Of a DNA stretch of 64,000 bases, positions 29,901-58,550 are shown piece after piece. Within the stretch, counting starts at the first letter, position 1; each line of letters begins with the position of its first letter. Source of the stretch: Branchiostoma floridae (taxonomy: Eukaryota; Chordata; Leptocardii; Amphioxiformes; Branchiostomatidae); contig NC_049990.1 in the NCBI RefSeq assembly GCF_000003815.2, positions 13,455,460-13,519,459 of the forward strand, in the 5' to 3' direction. The notes under the pieces are model-generated. The model ran no database searches. It had not been told where the DNA came from and saw only the letters and a list, made by a program, of their open reading frames with translations. Position numbers and translations under genes: made by a program.

Positions 29901-32900
29901 CCCATCTCATGTTCAGCCTCCGCCATTCGACCACTTGTGGGTCAGTGTCAACTCTGTTTTCTCTTACATATGCATGGTTAAGGCCACATGGATTTATTTC
30001 CAATGGCTGCTATTTTCTCAGTAGGGCTGTATATTACTAGGGGTGGGTACCAGTACAGAAAATTCAGGTCCAGGTCCAGTTCTTGTCCAGAGGATCAGGT
30101 TTAGGTTTGGACCTGAACCTGGACCTGATTCAGTATGTGAGAACTTGTGAATGGACGATACTCGAGACAATGGTCCATTGCACAACAAAGGAAACTGTTT
30201 TGTGAAGTATTCAACTCCCACTGGCATTTTAAAATCCCACAGGGCTAACTGCCTCTGTACAATTGACTGTAAAACTTGGTAGAAATGACTATAGACTATA
30301 GACTCTACTCGCTGTTATTTTCCTCGAACGGTAAGCCCCCGAAACGTGTGAATGCCTGATCATATACATTGTAATTTGTTCATTTTCCAATAGGTCCAAC
30401 ATCCAATCCACCAAATTTTTTCAGGTCCGTTTTTTCTGGACCGGTCCAATAAGAAAAAAACAGTTTTGTACTGGAACACCATACCGGTACCCACCCACAC
30501 TGTATACGCAATACTTTTATGAAAACCTGGGCCTGTAGAATTGTTTCGGAGTAGTTTTACTGATTAGATTGAACTCCCAGTGATCCCTCAGTATTAGAAA
30601 AGTCCATTGGCCAGACTAGCCAGGGTAAGTGCTTTACTTGCAGCCCGTGGGACTATTCCATGGGTGTGATTTTCCCATGGGTAGATATTGGTCCACTAGC
30701 CTGACTAGATTATGTTTATAGTGGCCTGCAAGACTGACCAGCCCTAAAAGCTTATCAGACACCCGTAAAACAAGGTATAAGTTTACACAAAGTATACATT
30801 TAGGCAGTAGTAGAGTCCTTACACCTAACAGTCGCGTAGTTAATGTTACATGCTTTAAAGTGCTTTTCTTAGCTGAAAAATAAAAGGATGTATCAAATAG
30901 ATTTGGGGCCAGTAAAAACTTGAGGCAGAAGTATTTGACCTACCTGTACATGTACCTCCCCAGCCTCCCCTCAAGCGTCGGTGGCTGCGGCAGCTGTTGC
31001 CGTGGCAGCGCAGCACGCCGGCGGGATGAGACCGGGCCCCGCCATGTCACTCAACCACCCCATGTTCCTGTCCATGGAGGCCGCCAGGCAGGCACAACAA
31101 GTCCCACCATCTATTACTACAGCTAGTGAAGGTACAGTTCAGTTTCTACAGGCACAACAAGTCCCACCATCTATTACTACAGCTAGTGAAGGTACAGTTC
31201 AGTTTCTACAGGCACAACAAGTCCCACCATCTATTACTACAGCTAGTGAAGGTACAGTTCAGTTTCTACAGGCACAACAAGTCCCACCATCTATTACTAC
31301 AGCTAGTGAAGGTACAGTTCAGTTTCTACAGGCACAACAAGTCCCACCATCTATTACTACTGCTAGTGAAGGTACAGTTCAGTTTCTACAGGCACAACAA
31401 GTCCCACCATCTATTACTACAGCTAGTGAAGGTACAGTTCAGTTTCTACAGGCACAAGTCCCACCATCTATTACTACAGCTAGTGAAGGTACAGTTCAGT
31501 TTCTACAGGCACAACAAGTCCCACCATCTATTACTACAGCTAGTGAAGGTACAGTTCAGTTTCTACAGGCACAACAAGTCCCACCATCTATTACTACAGC
31601 TAGTGAAGGTACAGTTCAGTTTCTACAGGCACAACAAGTCCCACCATCTATTACTACAGCTAGTGAAGGTACAGTTCAGTTTCTACAGGCACAACAAGTC
31701 CCACCATCTATTACTACAGCTAGTGAAGGTACAGTTCAGTTTCTACAGGCACAACAAGTCCCACCATCTATTACTACAGCTAGTGAAGGTACAGTTCAGT
31801 TTCTACAGGCACAACAAGTCCCACCATCTGTTACTACAGCTAGTGAAGGTACAGTTTAGTTTCTACAGGCACAACAAGTCCCACCATCTATTACTACAGC
31901 TAGTGAAGGTACAGTTCAGTTTCTACAGGCACAACAAGTCCCACCATCTATTACTACAGCTAGTGAAGGTACATGGTTTCTGTTCAGTTTCTACCAAGAG
32001 ATTTCTTATGTAAAAGGGCTGGAAATACTTGCTAAATATGCAGGTTAGTTCAGGTAAAATTGGAACTGCGCAGGTAGTTCTGGTGTCTACCTGCACCTAA
32101 CCTGCACTTGTCCATGTACTAGGTATATTATAATTATGAATACAGATCTAATGTTCAAATGTAGGTTTGCAAATTTACCCTTTGGTGCATAACTGTGTTT
32201 CTTCTGTAGCCAATGACTCGTCAGCATCCAGTATGAGTGGCAGCTATGCTGGTGGTGTGGGCGGAGCCAGCACCCAGCCAGTCCTGGCAGTGGGGGCACC
32301 AGGGAACCCTAACTCCTCCCCCAGACCCAGTATACTCAGGAAGAGGACCAATGATGGGTGAGCCTAAAATAACCTTGTTAAAATCTGAACAAGTTTTGGG
32401 TTGTCATGAAAGAACACCTGTTTCATAGCCTATGTATGGAGGGATTGAAATACTGTACCTTGGTTCTGGTAACTGCAATATTGCAAGTTGCCAAATGTTT
32501 TTTATGCAATTTGCAGAAAGCTTTACTAAAATTTACTAAACATATTATCAAATTTGCTTTATGGAAAAGTCTACCCTCTCAGTCAGATGTTGGGACAAAA
32601 CCTTTGAAAGATCTGTATCTGTACATGTATCTGTACAGCCAGTATAACCGTCCTTTGGCGTAACATGGAGTCCATAGCAGGGTTGTAGCCAGCACCCTGA
32701 CCCTGTCCTTCAGCCCTTTGATGGAATTTTGCAGCTGGGGCCATACCCATTCCCTCCTCTGTGATGGACAGAAATGGATACGTAAAGATTATAATAAAAC
32801 TGTCTACTTGGTGTAATTTTTCAACAAAACAGATGCTGTGGAACAGCCTAGTCTACCAGTAAAATTTACATCTGAAAATGCAGGAAACAGCATTTCAGAG

Positions 32901-43980: not shown

Positions 43981-44358
43981 GGCCATATTATATATGGATG
44001 ACGTCCCTGTACGCAATTTTCGACTATTTCCAAAAAAAAGTTTTCAACCATATTGTAAATCGTACAAAGCATCAGTAAAATGAGCAAATGTAAGCCTTAT
44101 AGATGGCAAAAATTATTGGAAAATGGATACTTATCTCATGGAATGCTAATGTCGATTCCAAGGCCAGAGCAGAAGATGTAAAAGAACAAAAATGAAGAAC
44201 TTTATTATTTGGTATACCATACTATATTTAGTCATTTGTGCAGCCCTCCTGACCACTTACATTTCATAGGACAGTTTTGTTTAGCCACTAATTCACACAC
44301 TCGTATTAGTTTGGGGGTTACCAGAGGATATCATCCATATAACCAAATCAATATGGCC
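43981..44358. mobile_element. Harbinger-like MITE, GGCCATATT family, with TTA duplication
   Basis: It begins GGCCATATTATATATGGATG and ends with the inverse CATCCATATAACCAAATCAA then TATGGCC. TTA is duplicated at 43978-43980 and 44359-44361. A 3-bp TTA/TAA target and GG-starting ends fit PIF/Harbinger. The interior shares AGAACAAAAATGAAGAA with the copy at 18129. No transposase frame. Confidence 0.8.
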
Positions 44359-50804: not shown

Positions 50805-53800
50805 ATGGGGAGAGGTGTGGAGTTCTGTATGTGTGTACTAGCTGCAGTCCTCGGAGCAGGGAAAACAGGTATTGAAACGTGTAACTAATTATTCAAATAC
50901 AATTTAATCTCTACTGGATATTTACTTCCGGACGTTTCGAGTGACACCCGTCACTCTTCTTCAGCGTCACTAGAATGAACTAGCAAAACTATTCAATACA
51001 AGTACAGCTAACTATAAAAACTGGTTGAACCACTAACTCTTAGGGATCATATGCAAAGTTAGCTGTACTTGTATTGAATTGTTCTGCCAGTTCATTAGAG
51101 TGACGCTGAAGAAGAGTGATGGATGTCACTTGAAACGTCCTGAAGTAAATATCCGTTTTCTATCCAGTTGTAGAGATTGAATTGTATTTGATTATTGTTA
51201 ACCTGGATGTCTAACCTTCATAAACGTATGTGACTAATTAGTTCCATCAATGTAGAAATTAGCAAATCAGATCGTTCGGTCACAAAGACCCGTCCCACAG
51301 TAGCACAACACCTGTCAGGTTTTCTCCTAGGGGGATTAACATATAGTACATAGTAGGACGCCAAAGTGAGAGGGTTCGACGCCTAAAAATTTATAGCAAG
51401 GTGCACTGCAATTTACAAGACTTTAATGTGTTGAATTTCAGAGTCCAATGTACAGAATATACGAAAATGAGCTTGAATTAGCTGGCTCGTTCTTTTTTAA
51501 AGGCCAGTTTTGTCTGACTCCCAGCCATGGGACTGCAGCCGACGCAAAGGGGTAGCAGTATCATTACATAAGGCGCAAATTCTTGCCGACCGCAGAAACA
51601 TCTTGCAACTTACACAGTCTCAAAACGAATGTATTTCTCTACCATTCAGCACAGTTACCATGATTACCTTTGTCTTAAAGTTAAGAGTATTGATGAGTTT
51701 GATGATATTCTGTGCCTTAAAACAGTTTAAGGCGACCTTTGCATTGACAAACACCATTTGAAAATTACGAATATAAGACAAAGAACATTGCTATGTAAGC
51801 TGAGAATCAGTTGGTACAAACTGAAAATTGCCCCATGGCCATGTAGAAGAGTTCCAGTGCCCGGCACATAGCCACTACTCGGCGTGCGGTTCGGCCTGTG
51901 AGCCCACGTGTGCAGACCCGTGGCCGGCGTGTGTGCAGGCGTGTGCGGACCCGTGGTCGGGGTGTACACAGCCGTGTGTGGAGGGGTGCGTGTGTGATGA
52001 CGGCTACATCCGGGGCTGGAACGGAACATGCATTAACAAAACTGACTGTGGCTGCTTCAGCAACGGAAATTACTACAAGGTTAGCACCATATTTCTACAA
52101 AAAATATTTCTATGATGAACACATATGCTTCAGTTTTGTTAGTTCACATCTTCTTCTTCGATTTACGGCATAAATTACAGCTGTTTCGCACGATTTAACC
52201 GTATGGTCGAAAACCTGTACGTTATTATGGAAGGTCGATGTGTATGTTCGGGTGGATGTCATGTATATAATTATCTTTCTGTCATGTCATGTCATGTCCG
52301 TTATGTGTATATTGATATATTTTATGTGGATCACAGGAATAATAGCTGGCAACATAATATTGTTAGCTAAATGTGGATCTAAATGAAGTCAAAGTCAAGT
52401 CAAATCAAATGAACATGTCGAATGAACATGGCCTCCCATGCTGTGTTGCCAGACAGACGAGGTGTGGCTGACTCCCGGGTCCCGCCGCTGCACGTGCCTC
52501 GCCAACAGCTCCGTGGCCTGTGCCGACCTGAGCTGTACCCGCTCCCGCCCTGCCCTGAGTGACGGCGTGGATAACGACTGTGACGGCCGGGTGGATGAGG
52601 AGCTGCTCAACGGGCTGGATGACGACGGTGACGGGGAGATAGACGAGGATGTCGGTTAGTCTGTTGTTCTGTGACGTCACTGTAGGATATTTGGCCCAGA
52701 ACCCAGAGGTATTCGATTCGAATCCTGTCATGCCCACGGGAAAGGCAATTTACAAAACTTTCCTGGGGTCATCCAGGTGTAAAAAGACCTGACTTCGGTT
52801 AGGGAGTTAAAAGGCCCCATTCCCAACTCCCATTGGACTACCCTTGCCTTATCAAGCATGTTGTTCTTGTATGTGACACTGTTGAGTGCAGTGCCATATT
52901 GTTCTTGTCTGTTCAAAAGTAGATTTGAATTAAAATGTTTTTCATAAATATAGATTCACTGGCTCGGAAAGCGCCTCTGTTGTTCGGACAATTCCCAAAA
53001 CAGTGCTTAAAGGACACGTTAACAATGTGTACATTGTACATTTCCACAATTGATATTGGCACCGTACAATTTGTGACCTAGGTCCACAGAGCCGTAGTTC
53101 GCAAACTTTACTACCTCCGGCATGTTATCTGTTTATTTTGCCAATTTGCACTCTAATTTTCCAGTGACATGTTGAGCCTGGTAGAGGCTCTGACGTTAAC
53201 ATGAACAGTGGGTCATAAGTTGTAGACAGTTTATGGCGCCCCCCCCCCCCGCCCCCCGTCTATGTTGAGGGATGGTTACTAAGACTTGAGATAGATTGCT
53301 TCTTTAATCTATTCCTTTTTAAAAAGTCTGATTCCCAGGTCAAGATTCCTTCTTTTTCCTTCGAGACAGTGGCGCCGGTGAACGACACTATAGACTTTTT
53401 TGCAACTTTGATCCAGCAACTGTAGCTGAAAACCATTCCAAGATAATACTTTCATATCTCATGAGCCAGTCCCCATGTCTTTCTCGACAAAACGTGATTT
53501 CTTTTCCTTTTTGTACTTCAACAGTTGGAAGTTGCGGGATCGACATAGTGTTTGTGATCGACGGGTCCTGGAGTATCGGGCCGGCGGTGTTTGAGAGAAT
53601 CAAGGGGTTTGTACGGGACATCGTCGGTTGTCTGGACATCGGGGAAATTCAGGTGGAAAATACTGCACAGTCGCTAGATTTTTCTTCTTTTCGTGCTTGC
53701 TGTTACTTAAGTCTTCACACTTAAGTTTATATGAAATATACAAATGTAGAAAGGTATCTAGATGAGGCTGAATGTCAACATAGTCAGAGACGTATAGTTG

Positions 53801-56800
53801 ATAGTTTGAATTTCTGCATAACATTTTCAAAGTCAAGTTTGCTATAACGTGGGGGAATGCACAATTAATTAATAAGGCCATGTTGATTTGATTATATGGA
53901 TGACATCCAGCTGAAGCTATTTATCTCATTCTTTTAGCTCAAAAAAGTATTTCTCATGAAAAGCGTGATAATTACAAAATATGTGATTGTGATAAGTAAA
54001 AACTTTGTCACATTTTTTCGCCAAAGGATTTTCAACCTTCTTCTGAAGAATTAATGTGATAGCAACTCCCTTATCACATTAATTCTCTATAGAGAGATTC
54101 AGAAATCTTCTACTGGAGAATTAATATGATAGCAACCCCCTTATCACATTAATTCTCCATAGAGAGATCCGGGATTCTTCTACTGGAGAATTAATGTGAT
54201 AGCAACCCGCTTATCACATTAATTCTCCATAGAAAGATCCAAAAATCTTTACTGGAGAATTAATGTGATAGCAACCCCCTTATCACATTAATTCTCTGGA
54301 GAATTAATGTGATAGCAACCCCCTTATCACATTAATTCTCCATAGAGAGATCCGGGATTCTTCTACTGGAGAATTAATGTGATAGCAACCCCCTTATCAC
54401 ATTAATTCTCCATAGAGAGATCCGGGATTCTTCTACTGGAGAATTAATGTGATAGCAACCCCCTTATCACATTAATTCTCCATAGAAAGATCCAAAAATC
54501 TTTACTGGAGAATTAATGTGATAGCAACCCCCTTATCACATTAATTCTCCATAGAGAGATCCACGATTCTTATATGGAGAATTAATGTGATAGCAACCCC
54601 CTTATCACATTAATTCTCCAAATAGAGATCAACGGTTCTCCTACTGGTGAATTAACTTGACAAAGTTGTGATAAAGGCCTGTTCGTATCAGTATGTGGTT
54701 ACCGTCACCAGTTCGCAGCATGCAATCGTTTACGGAATTAAACACCAGACACGTTACATTTTGGTGTTACATAATGTCCTTTATTTGGGGAAAAACTTTA
54801 TGAATGTTACGTAAATATACTTCAGTTGGTTACATAACGTCCTTGTTTTGGAGAAAACGAAGCGCCCCCTATTTTGGGAACATGAGACCGGAAAAGACGT
54901 CACAGGGTACTCCCCCAAAACCGCGGGATGGGACAAAAACATCAAGGCCCCTTTCATGATGCAAAAAATGAAACGGTGCTATCGGTTACTATCGATTAAG
55001 TCAGCTGAAACGGATAAGTTTTGAGACAAAGGGGGTCAAAATCATCTTGTTTACTGCGTCTAAAATCTCTTCTGCTAACAAGACCACCAATTATTTGACT
55101 TTCATCATAGTTATAGTGTCATGGATAATGTGACATGAACATGTGACGTAAACAAACAACCAGAAACGCACAGTAAATAGTACGTTGTGATCAATGTCCT
55201 GATCGCCGATCCATCGCATGGTGTTGGGGATTCCCCTTGTGACGTCACTATCTTTCAAGTTGCATTCTGTGAGGCGGAGGTGCAGTTTTCGTTTTGTGTT
55301 CGCAAACTCGGGAGCGCTTCGTCAAAATAGACTTTATTTTCGAGTTTCATTTGGTTAGGCGACAGCAGTATTATGGATGCCATCACGCCTGATTTCAGAC
55401 AAGGAAGCTTATGAAAAAAGCTGGCCGGTGCGTATTTTGGAAAAAGCCTGGACGTTAAACAAAATCAAATGAAAAAAGAGTTTTTAAACATCGAATTACT
55501 GAATTGGTCTGTCTTCTATAAAAAAAATAATTTACTTAAGATTTGTCTTTCAAAGTAAAAAATTTGTAACAAGTGGGGTTCGAACCCACGATCCACGGCT
55601 GCAAAAGCAAATCGCTATCACCCAGCACCTTAGACCGGGCAGCCACGCTGACTCAATTACGTTATTAGGCGTATAGAAGAGCTATTAGAAGGGTTTGCTT
55701 AGATTGACCGATCCATGTATCTATCCGTGCAAACCAACCCGTTGAACGAACCACTTCTCTCGATTCAAAACGTATACGCACCGGCAAAAAAATATGATTT
55801 TTCCCATCTGAGATTGCAACCCTTGATAATAGAATAATTGAAGTCCATTTTCCTAGAGACAGACTTTGAAATAGTGTAGTATAATTTCGTTATTGTATTA
55901 ATCGCTCTGTCATACTTGCCATGCATTAAACTGTCGAGGAACAAAGTTCATTCATTCCATTACTAAAAAGGCCTAGAAATTACAAAAGAAGAAAAAATAT
56001 GACTTCCACGAATCCATACATGCTCTGAATGATTTTAACCTTTACGGCTGAAACATTATGTGCGTTTTTCATCAATCATGCAAACAAGGTCCTCGTGGGC
56101 ATACCTTATTTTTGTTGGGCATCTCTCCACCAAGTTAACAGAAGTAGACAATTCTGTCTTAAGACTAGTATCGAGAGGAGGCCATACTAGCATTTTCTGA
56201 TCATTTATGCAAACAATTATAAGTCTTCATTTACACAATTTATGTTCAAGGATGTTCACCTCCACGTAAGTTCCAAATGCCACAAGAATGAAATTCCAGT
56301 CATTTACAACTATGTCAGTTTCTCATTTACTATGATGATAATGCTAATTATAAGGGGGTTGCTATCACAATAATTCTCCAGTAGATGAGTACTGGATCTT
56401 TATTTGGAGAATTAATGTGATAAGGGGGTTGCTATCACATTAATTCTCCATTTAAGAAAACTGGATCTCTCTTTGAAGAATTTATGTGATAAGGGGGTTG
56501 CTATCACATTAATTCTCCAGTAGAAGAATATTGGATCACTCTTTGGAGAATTAATGTGATAAAGGGGTTGCTATCACATTAATTCTCCAGTAGAAGAATC
56601 CTGGATATCTCTTTGGAGAATTAATGTGATAAAGGGGTTGCTATCACATTAATTCTCCAGATAGGAATCCTGGATCTCTCTGTTTAATGTGATAAAGGGG
56701 CTGCTATCACATTAATTCTCCAGTAGAAGAATACTGGATCACTCTTTGGAGAATTAATGTGATAAGGGGGTTGCTATCACATTAATTCTCCAGTAAAAGA

Positions 56801-57960
56801 ATACTGGATCACTCTTTGGAGAATTAATGTGATAAAGGGGTTGCTATCACATTAATTCTCCAGATAGGAATCCTGGATCTCTCTTTGGAGAATTAATGTG
56901 ATAAAGGGGTTGCTATCACATTAATTCTCCATATAGAATACAAGATATCTGTATGGAGAATTAATGTGATAAGGGGGTTGCTATCACATTAATTCTCCAG
57001 TAAAAGATACTTATACCTCTCAATTGGTGAATTAATGAGACATTAAACTCTAGATCTATTATCACAACTTTTTCAGTTATCACGATATTTATTTTAAATA
57101 CTTTTCAGAGCTAAATGAATGTGATAAATAATCAGATCTTGACATCCTCTTGGAGCTATAAAACTGATGCAAACGTGCGATAAAAAGAGAGTCTGGCAAA
57201 AATATATCCCTCTAAGTAGGGGTGGGTACCGGTACAGAAAATTCAGGTCCAGGTCCGGTTCAGGTCCAGAGGATCAGGTCCAGGTCCGGACCTGAACCTG
57301 GACCTGATTCAGTATGAGAACACATGTGAATGGACGATACTCAAAACAATGGTCAATTTCGCTGCTTTACTGGTTTACTGTGTGATTGAATGCTATGTTA
57401 GAATGGGCGAACATTTATGCACCCGTGGATGTCTTCCATATAATCGAATCGACATGGTATAAAGTACACACCTCATCTGTTGTCATAGGTTGGAGTTATC
57501 CACTACGACTGTTTGCCGAAGTTAGACATCCAGCTCGGCAGCTACACCATGAAAACAGACCTCCAGGACGCCATCTTGACAGAAATCACTTTCGACGGGG
57601 AAGTGACGCGGACCGGAAACGCCATTCAATACATGAAAAATACGGTAAACTTGGCGTTTCTACGATCAACTACACAAAGTTAACGTAGATGTTCATTGTA
57701 AAAGGGCAGCAATGCACTTCTACAGTATTAGTGGTAGTGCGAGCGGTCACCATTATGTTTACATCCGTTCCTATAAAACACACATTGCTACACATAACGT
57801 TACACACAAAGGCAGATATGTGCACACATAGACACAAAGACATGCACACAGGCACCACACCCATACATAGACACACATACGCCCACAAGCACATGAACAC
57901 ACACAGACACCCACAAACACATGCGCACATGCACACACACACACACACAATTCAGTATAC

Positions 57961-57993
<33 letters not shown>

Positions 57994-58550
57994 TCGTGAC
58001 ATACGCCCGCATGCACACTGACACACACGTGTACACATACAAACACACGTGTACACACACACGCACATACACAAACACACACAACACACACAAGCGCATT
58101 CACAACATGCGTAAACCTACACACCAAATACCAATTGAGAAACACAGTGGGTTACAGCAAGCATAATTTCCCGTGTATTTCCCAGATCCCGTTCCGTGGT
58201 TACGTCCCGAGAGCGGCTGTGATCGTGACTGATGGCCGGACGCAGCTGGATGTAGAAGGGCATCAGGTACAACTCACAAGTTTCCCTTCAGCATGTCCAA
58301 CAAGCAGATGTGTGGCTTTGGCTCGTTTTGCACTACCACTAGTACTAACACCCAGGCATGCAGAACAAGCCAGAGACAAACATCTGTTTTGAGATTATGA
58401 TTACTAGTAGTTTAATGATAGAGCGGGTACAACAAGATGGTGAGCTACATGTATGTACAACTTAAGGTACAACACAGAAATTCTCACTCAAAGGCAAACG
58501 CAGCCTCACCATCTGGATGCAACTGTGGGAAGGGCAAGTTTGCTTGTTTG

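Follow-up and report, generated by a model that had tools for sequence, protein, structure and literature searches.

Among described DNA transposons, the closest systems are the foldback-type elements, and the comparisons made here are limited to the available portions of their descriptions. Galileo, a foldback-like member of the P superfamily in Drosophila, has long inverted ends, which contain tandem repeats in part of its copies, target site duplications of 7–8 bp, and repeats that grow (PMC4168063); these repeats hold functional binding sites for the THAP domain of its transposase (PMC3688188). Tetris, a foldback element of Drosophila virilis, has modular long ends with tandem repeats, duplications of 8–10 bp and copies lacking a transposase, with no autonomous copies found (PMC4079207). 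Tm1, a Mutator/foldback element of root-knot nematodes, has composite inverted ends with repeated motifs of about 14 bp, two differing terminal motifs, and duplications of 9 bp (PMC3169594). Muta1, an active Mutator-like element of Aedes aegypti, is a type 2 foldback element with duplications of 8–9 bp, a terminal imperfect palindromic motif, and nine subterminal repeats of 12 bp with 3–4 bp spacers in a 145-bp end (PMC5225508). Lastly, the fungal RecQ-bearing Kolobok element KolobokH encodes a RecQ helicase together with its transposase, with RecQ downstream of the transposase domain and a TTAA duplication (PMC9587614).

The element described here lies in a 64,000-nucleotide stretch of the Branchiostoma floridae genome (the window), and by its structure is of foldback type, sharing the plan of Galileo, Tetris, Tm1 and Muta1. 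First, its long inverted ends are built of tandem repeats, and secondly, target site duplications are found at copies that differ in repeat number, with 6–21 units per array. The original statement that no element of this plan was known to have been described is thus too sweeping: long inverted ends carrying tandem repeats are known from foldback elements, and it is the 44-bp palindromic unit that does not appear in the available portions of those descriptions (PMC4168063, PMC4079207, PMC3169594, PMC5225508). Relative to the same accounts, the palindromic unit, the arrays of 6–21 units, a change present on both arms, and giant copies with a RecQ-fused protein look new. Unlike Galileo, the repeat unit is palindromic, giant copies are 25–35 kb long, and there is no THAP match in eight giant-copy reading frames; unlike Muta1, the units are 44-bp palindromes and the ends measure about 740 bp, and no MULE model matches the protein of the giants. 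The family differs from Tetris in having large coding relatives, and from KolobokH in its 8-bp duplication without fixed sequence and in the placement of RecQ upstream of a DDE-like region; its two ends, A and B, recall the two terminal motifs of Tm1. No lancelet element of this plan was found in the titles and abstract openings of the literature searched, subscription papers lying mostly outside that search.

The element, its arrays and its insertion site

The window element is 3231 bp long, has the ends 5'-AG...CT-3', and is flanked on both sides by the 8-bp duplication TGACATCC. Its boundaries were set by aligning the sequence outside the arrays across copies, and because most rows have a sharp edge the element is bounded at 53909 and 57139; three array flanks are without one, those of L012 and L025 on one side and that of L028, which reads N there. 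Across the aligned copies end A starts AGCTGAAGC, AGCTTAAGC or AGAGTTAGC, and end B starts AGATCTGATT or AGACCTGATT. The span originally given, 53876 to 57459, corresponds to the ends of a MITE that surrounds the element. The features are as follows.

53530–53652, plus strand: host-gene exon piece, VWA domain positions 1–35 (Pfam match)
53876–53908, unstranded: left part of the host MITE, the insertion target, outside the element (MITE comparison, joined-flank search)
53901–53908, plus strand: left copy of the 8-bp target site duplication TGACATCC (end comparison)
53909–57139, unstranded: whole element, 3231 bp (end alignment with other copies)
53909–54042, plus strand: end A, outer part of the long inverted repeat (aligns in other copies; at least 38 genome matches, window included)
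54045–54619, plus strand: left array, nine palindromic 44-bp units (unit search and alignment)
54661–54940, plus strand: interior block b, beside end A in the window copy and beside end B in the giants (alignment)
55018–56340, unstranded: interior block a, 90–91% identical to the giants over longer stretches (alignment)
about 56336–56998, minus strand: right array, ten units in mirror orientation, one truncated and the innermost with one degenerate arm (unit search and alignment)
57006–57139, minus strand: end B, outer part of the long inverted repeat (alignment with copies; half-site scan)
57140–57147, plus strand: right copy of the 8-bp target site duplication TGACATCC (end comparison)
57148–57459, unstranded: right part of the host MITE, outside the element (MITE comparison, joined-flank search)
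57489–57644, plus strand: next host-gene exon piece, VWA positions 40–90, below the Pfam cut-off (Pfam match)

The two arrays of palindromic 44-bp units are mirrored, with nine units on the left and ten on the right, in agreement with the nine and about ten facing, near-identical palindromes with an asymmetric centre noted from the sequence at the outset. In each complete unit an asymmetric centre of 10 bp separates two 17-bp arms, GGAGAATTAATGTGATA and its complement; the centre reads GCAACCCCCT in the left array and the complement of this in the right. Units follow one another at steps of about 70 bp with spacers of 24–26 bp, with exceptions such as two left-array units that abut (a 44-bp step at 54298). 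The right-array unit near 56677 has lost most of one arm by truncation, and the innermost right-array unit has a single good arm (56363–56379), its other arm being degenerate. The 17-bp half-site occurs 36 times in the window with up to two mismatches, against a mean of 0.03 in shuffled sequence. We note that within the left array a 253-bp block (54042–54547) is tandemly duplicated at 96% identity, the second copy joining at the unspaced unit.

Regular palindromic repeats with spacers are the one point in favour of a CRISPR-like memory array in a eukaryote, and the CRISPR likeness suggested earlier does not survive comparison of the spacers, which are variants of one sequence. This finding, together with the transposon ends, already refutes such an array; the arrays are moreover mirrored within a mobile element bearing duplications, and no cas family was found in the Pfam scan of eight frames of the gap-free giant copy described below, so that we give this explanation next to no weight. 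A scan for bacterial-type promoters and terminators (10 and 4, where shuffled sequence gave 12.4 and 1.6) was set aside as of no use in a eukaryote.

The inverted arms of the element align over 742 bases at 84.9% identity, including 280 ungapped bases at 90%, which bears out the expectation that the two arrays could pair over 600 bp. Between the arrays, a segment on the minus strand at 55574–55653 looks tRNA-like by eye, and no tRNA was reported there by ARAGORN or Rfam.

When the flanks of the element are joined at the duplication, 40 of the 41 matches listed span the junction without an insert, at 85–92% identity, the remaining match being the window's own right flank; these counts are lower bounds, with 40 of 642 candidates scored. 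The MITE is thus a resident repeat and the target of the insertion, and on these matches its ends belong to the target and not to the array element. Membership of the element in the flanking MITE family, as first proposed from shared Harbinger-like ends, was rejected: the element has differing ends of its own and an 8-bp duplication, and MITE copies occur empty of it. The reading of the array element as a transposon is supported. Another MITE end is present at 44326–44356 of the window, and 142 bases of the host MITE's right half (57217–57358) are 89% identical to 30038–30179, and are possibly a further repeat within this MITE. Because it falls between exon pieces matching VWA positions 1–35 and 40–90, the element is placed in an intron of a VWA-domain gene. 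A CA-rich microsatellite lies just downstream of the second exon piece, at 57823–58092.

Copies in the genome and giant relatives

Searches of the genome with the left array and with end A, much as had been proposed at the outset, revealed a family to which the window element belongs. End A has at least 38 genome matches, window included. Twenty stretches of the same genome, chosen among the matches listed (of 313) to the left array, were compared with the window, and copy counts are accordingly lower bounds. In all, 21 stretches from 18 elements, window included, yielded 413 units (118 distinct), with 6–21 units per array, which disposes of the alternative that such arrays are found only here. 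Thirteen copies have both ends, and among these the 8-bp duplication is perfect in nine, matches at seven of eight bases in two (L011 and L013), and is absent from two (L014 and L016); this count omits five loci (L012 and L025–L028), for which one or both end motifs are missing from the stretch examined. The ten short copies in which both ends were found, and three giants, have mirrored arrays at each end, and a single array was seen in the stretch examined for L026–L028. Since the copies were located through their arrays, arrays at both ends are partly a selection effect, and their universal presence gives no independent support.

The three giants share the ends, the arrays and perfect 8-bp duplications with the window element:

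C16:7301986–7336868: giant copy, 34,883 bp (both ends and perfect 8-bp duplication)
C1:2371678–2396607: giant copy, 24,930 bp (both ends and perfect 8-bp duplication)
C1:30531109–30563033: giant copy, 31,925 bp (both ends and perfect 8-bp duplication)

The first two contain runs of N, and the 31,925-bp copy is without N in the stretches read. Among the matches listed, and with arrays included, the giants are 94–100% identical to one another over longer collinear stretches. Block a of the window copy is 90–91% identical to the giants over longer stretches and 95% over one of 412 bases, and block b is about 86–89% identical to the other side of the giants. This shared interior makes the window copy a relative of the giants that has undergone internal deletion.

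Coding capacity and superfamily

A Pfam scan of the gap-free 31.9-kb giant covered eight reading frames. A protein kinase is matched in two pieces in separate frames, the second below the cut-off, and a RecQ helicase is matched by DEAD (in two pieces, the first below the cut-off), helicase C, zinc-binding and RQC models. Most of the helicase is contained in an open frame of 1535 residues that also encodes about 1000 further residues; the helicase as read is split over two frames, possibly by an intron. A weak OTU match below the cut-off lies upstream on the same strand. Against its own genome the RecQ-fused protein gives 34 matches, consisting of helicase-only open frames, fragments (many with stops) and one full copy, a count that is not informative for the two giants with gaps. 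Twenty of these 34 matches lie on C6 at 19.7–28.1 Mb (L040–L048 among them), many being stop-bearing fragments and some overlapping. Some resident MULEs on C6 lie close to a decayed RecQ relative; they have no similarity to the giant's protein, and their proximity was therefore dropped as evidence.

The region following the helicase has a DDE-like pattern by eye, with spacings of 80 and 119 residues. Its FP-x-A and H pattern resembles the group with a C/DxxH motif, but the letters here are ExxH; that group is named in the available part of PMC9587614. No Pfam transposase model matches the region, the sole weak match being to Mor (E 0.069, below the cut-off), no solved structure matches it, and there is no similarity between it and a resident MULE; because of these results we refer to it as a candidate transposase, and we infer that function from its pattern.

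In duplication length and end structure the elements are Mutator-like, but no transposase model matches them. Polinton/Maverick elements have a 6-bp duplication and polymerase and integrase genes, and AG...CT ends would fit them; they were discarded because the duplication here is 8 bp and no polymerase or integrase was found in the eight frames scanned. hAT elements carry a hAT dimerisation domain, for which the giant-copy frames scanned gave no match. MULEs are defined by duplications of 8–11 bp in the accessible text of PMC6446971, and the 8-bp duplication falls within this range; a MULE transposase domain was not found in the eight frames of the gap-free giant or the region after the helicase (the two other giants being gapped), and none of the 27 PF10551 matches listed falls in a giant copy. 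Zisupton/KDZ elements likewise have an 8-bp duplication (PMC12730594, in part), as seen here, and the KDZ transposase domain PF18758 (PMC9297572, in part) has no match in the giant-copy frames scanned; nor does the P transposase of the P superfamily, to which Galileo belongs, match any of the eight. Kolobok, characterized by a TTAA duplication according to the portion of PMC9587614 available, was rejected as a home for an element with 8-bp duplications.

The size and gene load of the 25–35 kb relatives, and their helicase and kinase genes, might also suggest integrated viruses, with the arrays as viral replication origins. No polymerase, capsid or integrase model was found in the eight frames scanned (two of the three giants being gapped), no relatives were found in phages for the region after the helicase or in viral_contigs for its 467-residue middle, and we regard a viral origin as very improbable. 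Taken jointly, the findings are probably best explained by the insertion of a foldback-type DNA transposon of the cut-and-paste kind, itself non-autonomous, into a MITE within an intron of a VWA-domain gene with duplication of 8 bp, the transposon being an internally deleted relative of 25–35 kb elements coding for a protein kinase and a probable mobility protein composed of a RecQ helicase and a DDE-like region.

The half-site and the possible roles of the arrays

A position-weight model of the half-site was run over the whole 64 kb, and the four highest-scoring matches beyond the arrays (at 57026, 54006, 54646 and 57110) all fall inside the element. Two of these variants are in end B, at 57026–57042 and 57110–57126, the latter ending 13 bp short of the right tip, whereas its left-tip counterpart (53922) has a much lower score. 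The presence of the half-site near a tip as well as in the arrays would broadly fit the needs of a protein that binds both. The arms of the units are well paired: among the 118 distinct units 89.8% of cells agree in register, against 24–38% when slid by 1–3 positions, and the palindromic unit is present in two subfamilies. Unit position 8/37 reads T-A in 194 units, A-T in 162, and A-A in 27 (17 of these in L016 and L018), and in L027 an unpaired T-T occupies this position in 9 of 18 units. This pattern points to a change made in two steps, retained by both arms and then spread by homogenisation, bearing in mind that it concerns one of 17 arm positions and that homogenisation spreads single events.

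From these observations the arrays are most likely multiplied binding sites for the element's predicted transposase, a role already among those suggested at the outset, with the 17-bp half-site as its putative recognition motif. There is a precedent in Galileo, whose transposase DNA-binding domain binds repeats within its long ends, as stated in the available portion of PMC3688188. A clear two-arm palindrome in two subfamilies, a two-sided change, and a gap-free 31.9-kb relative with a candidate protein come together in this family, and make the idea of a binding array directly testable.

The same transposon could carry arrays that are by-products of replication slippage at hairpin-forming palindromes and of gene conversion, and that have no binding role. 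In favour of this are the range of array sizes (6 to 21 units), the duplicated 253-bp block of the left array, and the strong folding of single units as single-stranded DNA (z of -10.4 and -9.4). We nevertheless think it unlikely, given that motif variants recur outside the arrays, one of them close to the right tip, that one arm position is changed on both sides, and that mirrored arrays are found at both ends in ten short copies and three giants, though these copies were selected via their arrays. Action of the arrays through secondary structure, either as read-through hairpin RNA feeding small RNAs or as replication-stalling cruciforms, is a reading that we rate as quite improbable. It draws on the 742-base alignment of the two sides, on the folding of single units at about -14 kcal/mol as single-stranded DNA, and on the link between long MULE ends and small RNAs (PMC6446971, in the part available); but no Rfam family reaches its gathering score in the window, microRNA matches all fall below theirs, and pairing alone needs no motif variants outside the arrays.

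Under the binding-site reading, the element would have inserted into the resident MITE in the VWA-gene intron, duplicating 8 bp, by means of a mobility protein (the RecQ helicase joined to the DDE-like region) supplied by the 25–35 kb relatives. Each 44-bp palindrome would be a dimer site for this protein, and the two arrays would load many protomers, allowing both ends of an element as long as 35 kb to be brought together. The arrays would grow, shrink and homogenise by unequal exchange. More boldly, and with low confidence, we speculate that these elements form a new superfamily, made up of giant DNA transposons of animals, with RecQ and a DDE transposase in one protein that binds mirrored palindrome arrays as dimers and possibly unwinds or extrudes them, so that long elements pair, copy or invert, with the small copies as passengers. 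If true, a RecQ-DDE protein moving 25–35 kb would add to the known giant eukaryotic DNA transposons.

The orientation of the interior relative to the ends differs between the short and giant copies. End A adjoins block b in all 13 non-giant copies in which both were found (the window copy, L009–L018, L026 and L027), and adjoins block a in all three giants. Several copies of the subfamily with AGAGTTAGC ends have about 69 bases of block b next to both arrays, and the call there rests on the longer match. The simplest cause would be recombination between the mirrored arrays, with at least one inversion of the interior against the tips, and because the copies share descent this counts as one event. 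In two of the giants (L020 and L021) a second array stretch lies 587 bp past one array, and block b is present twice.
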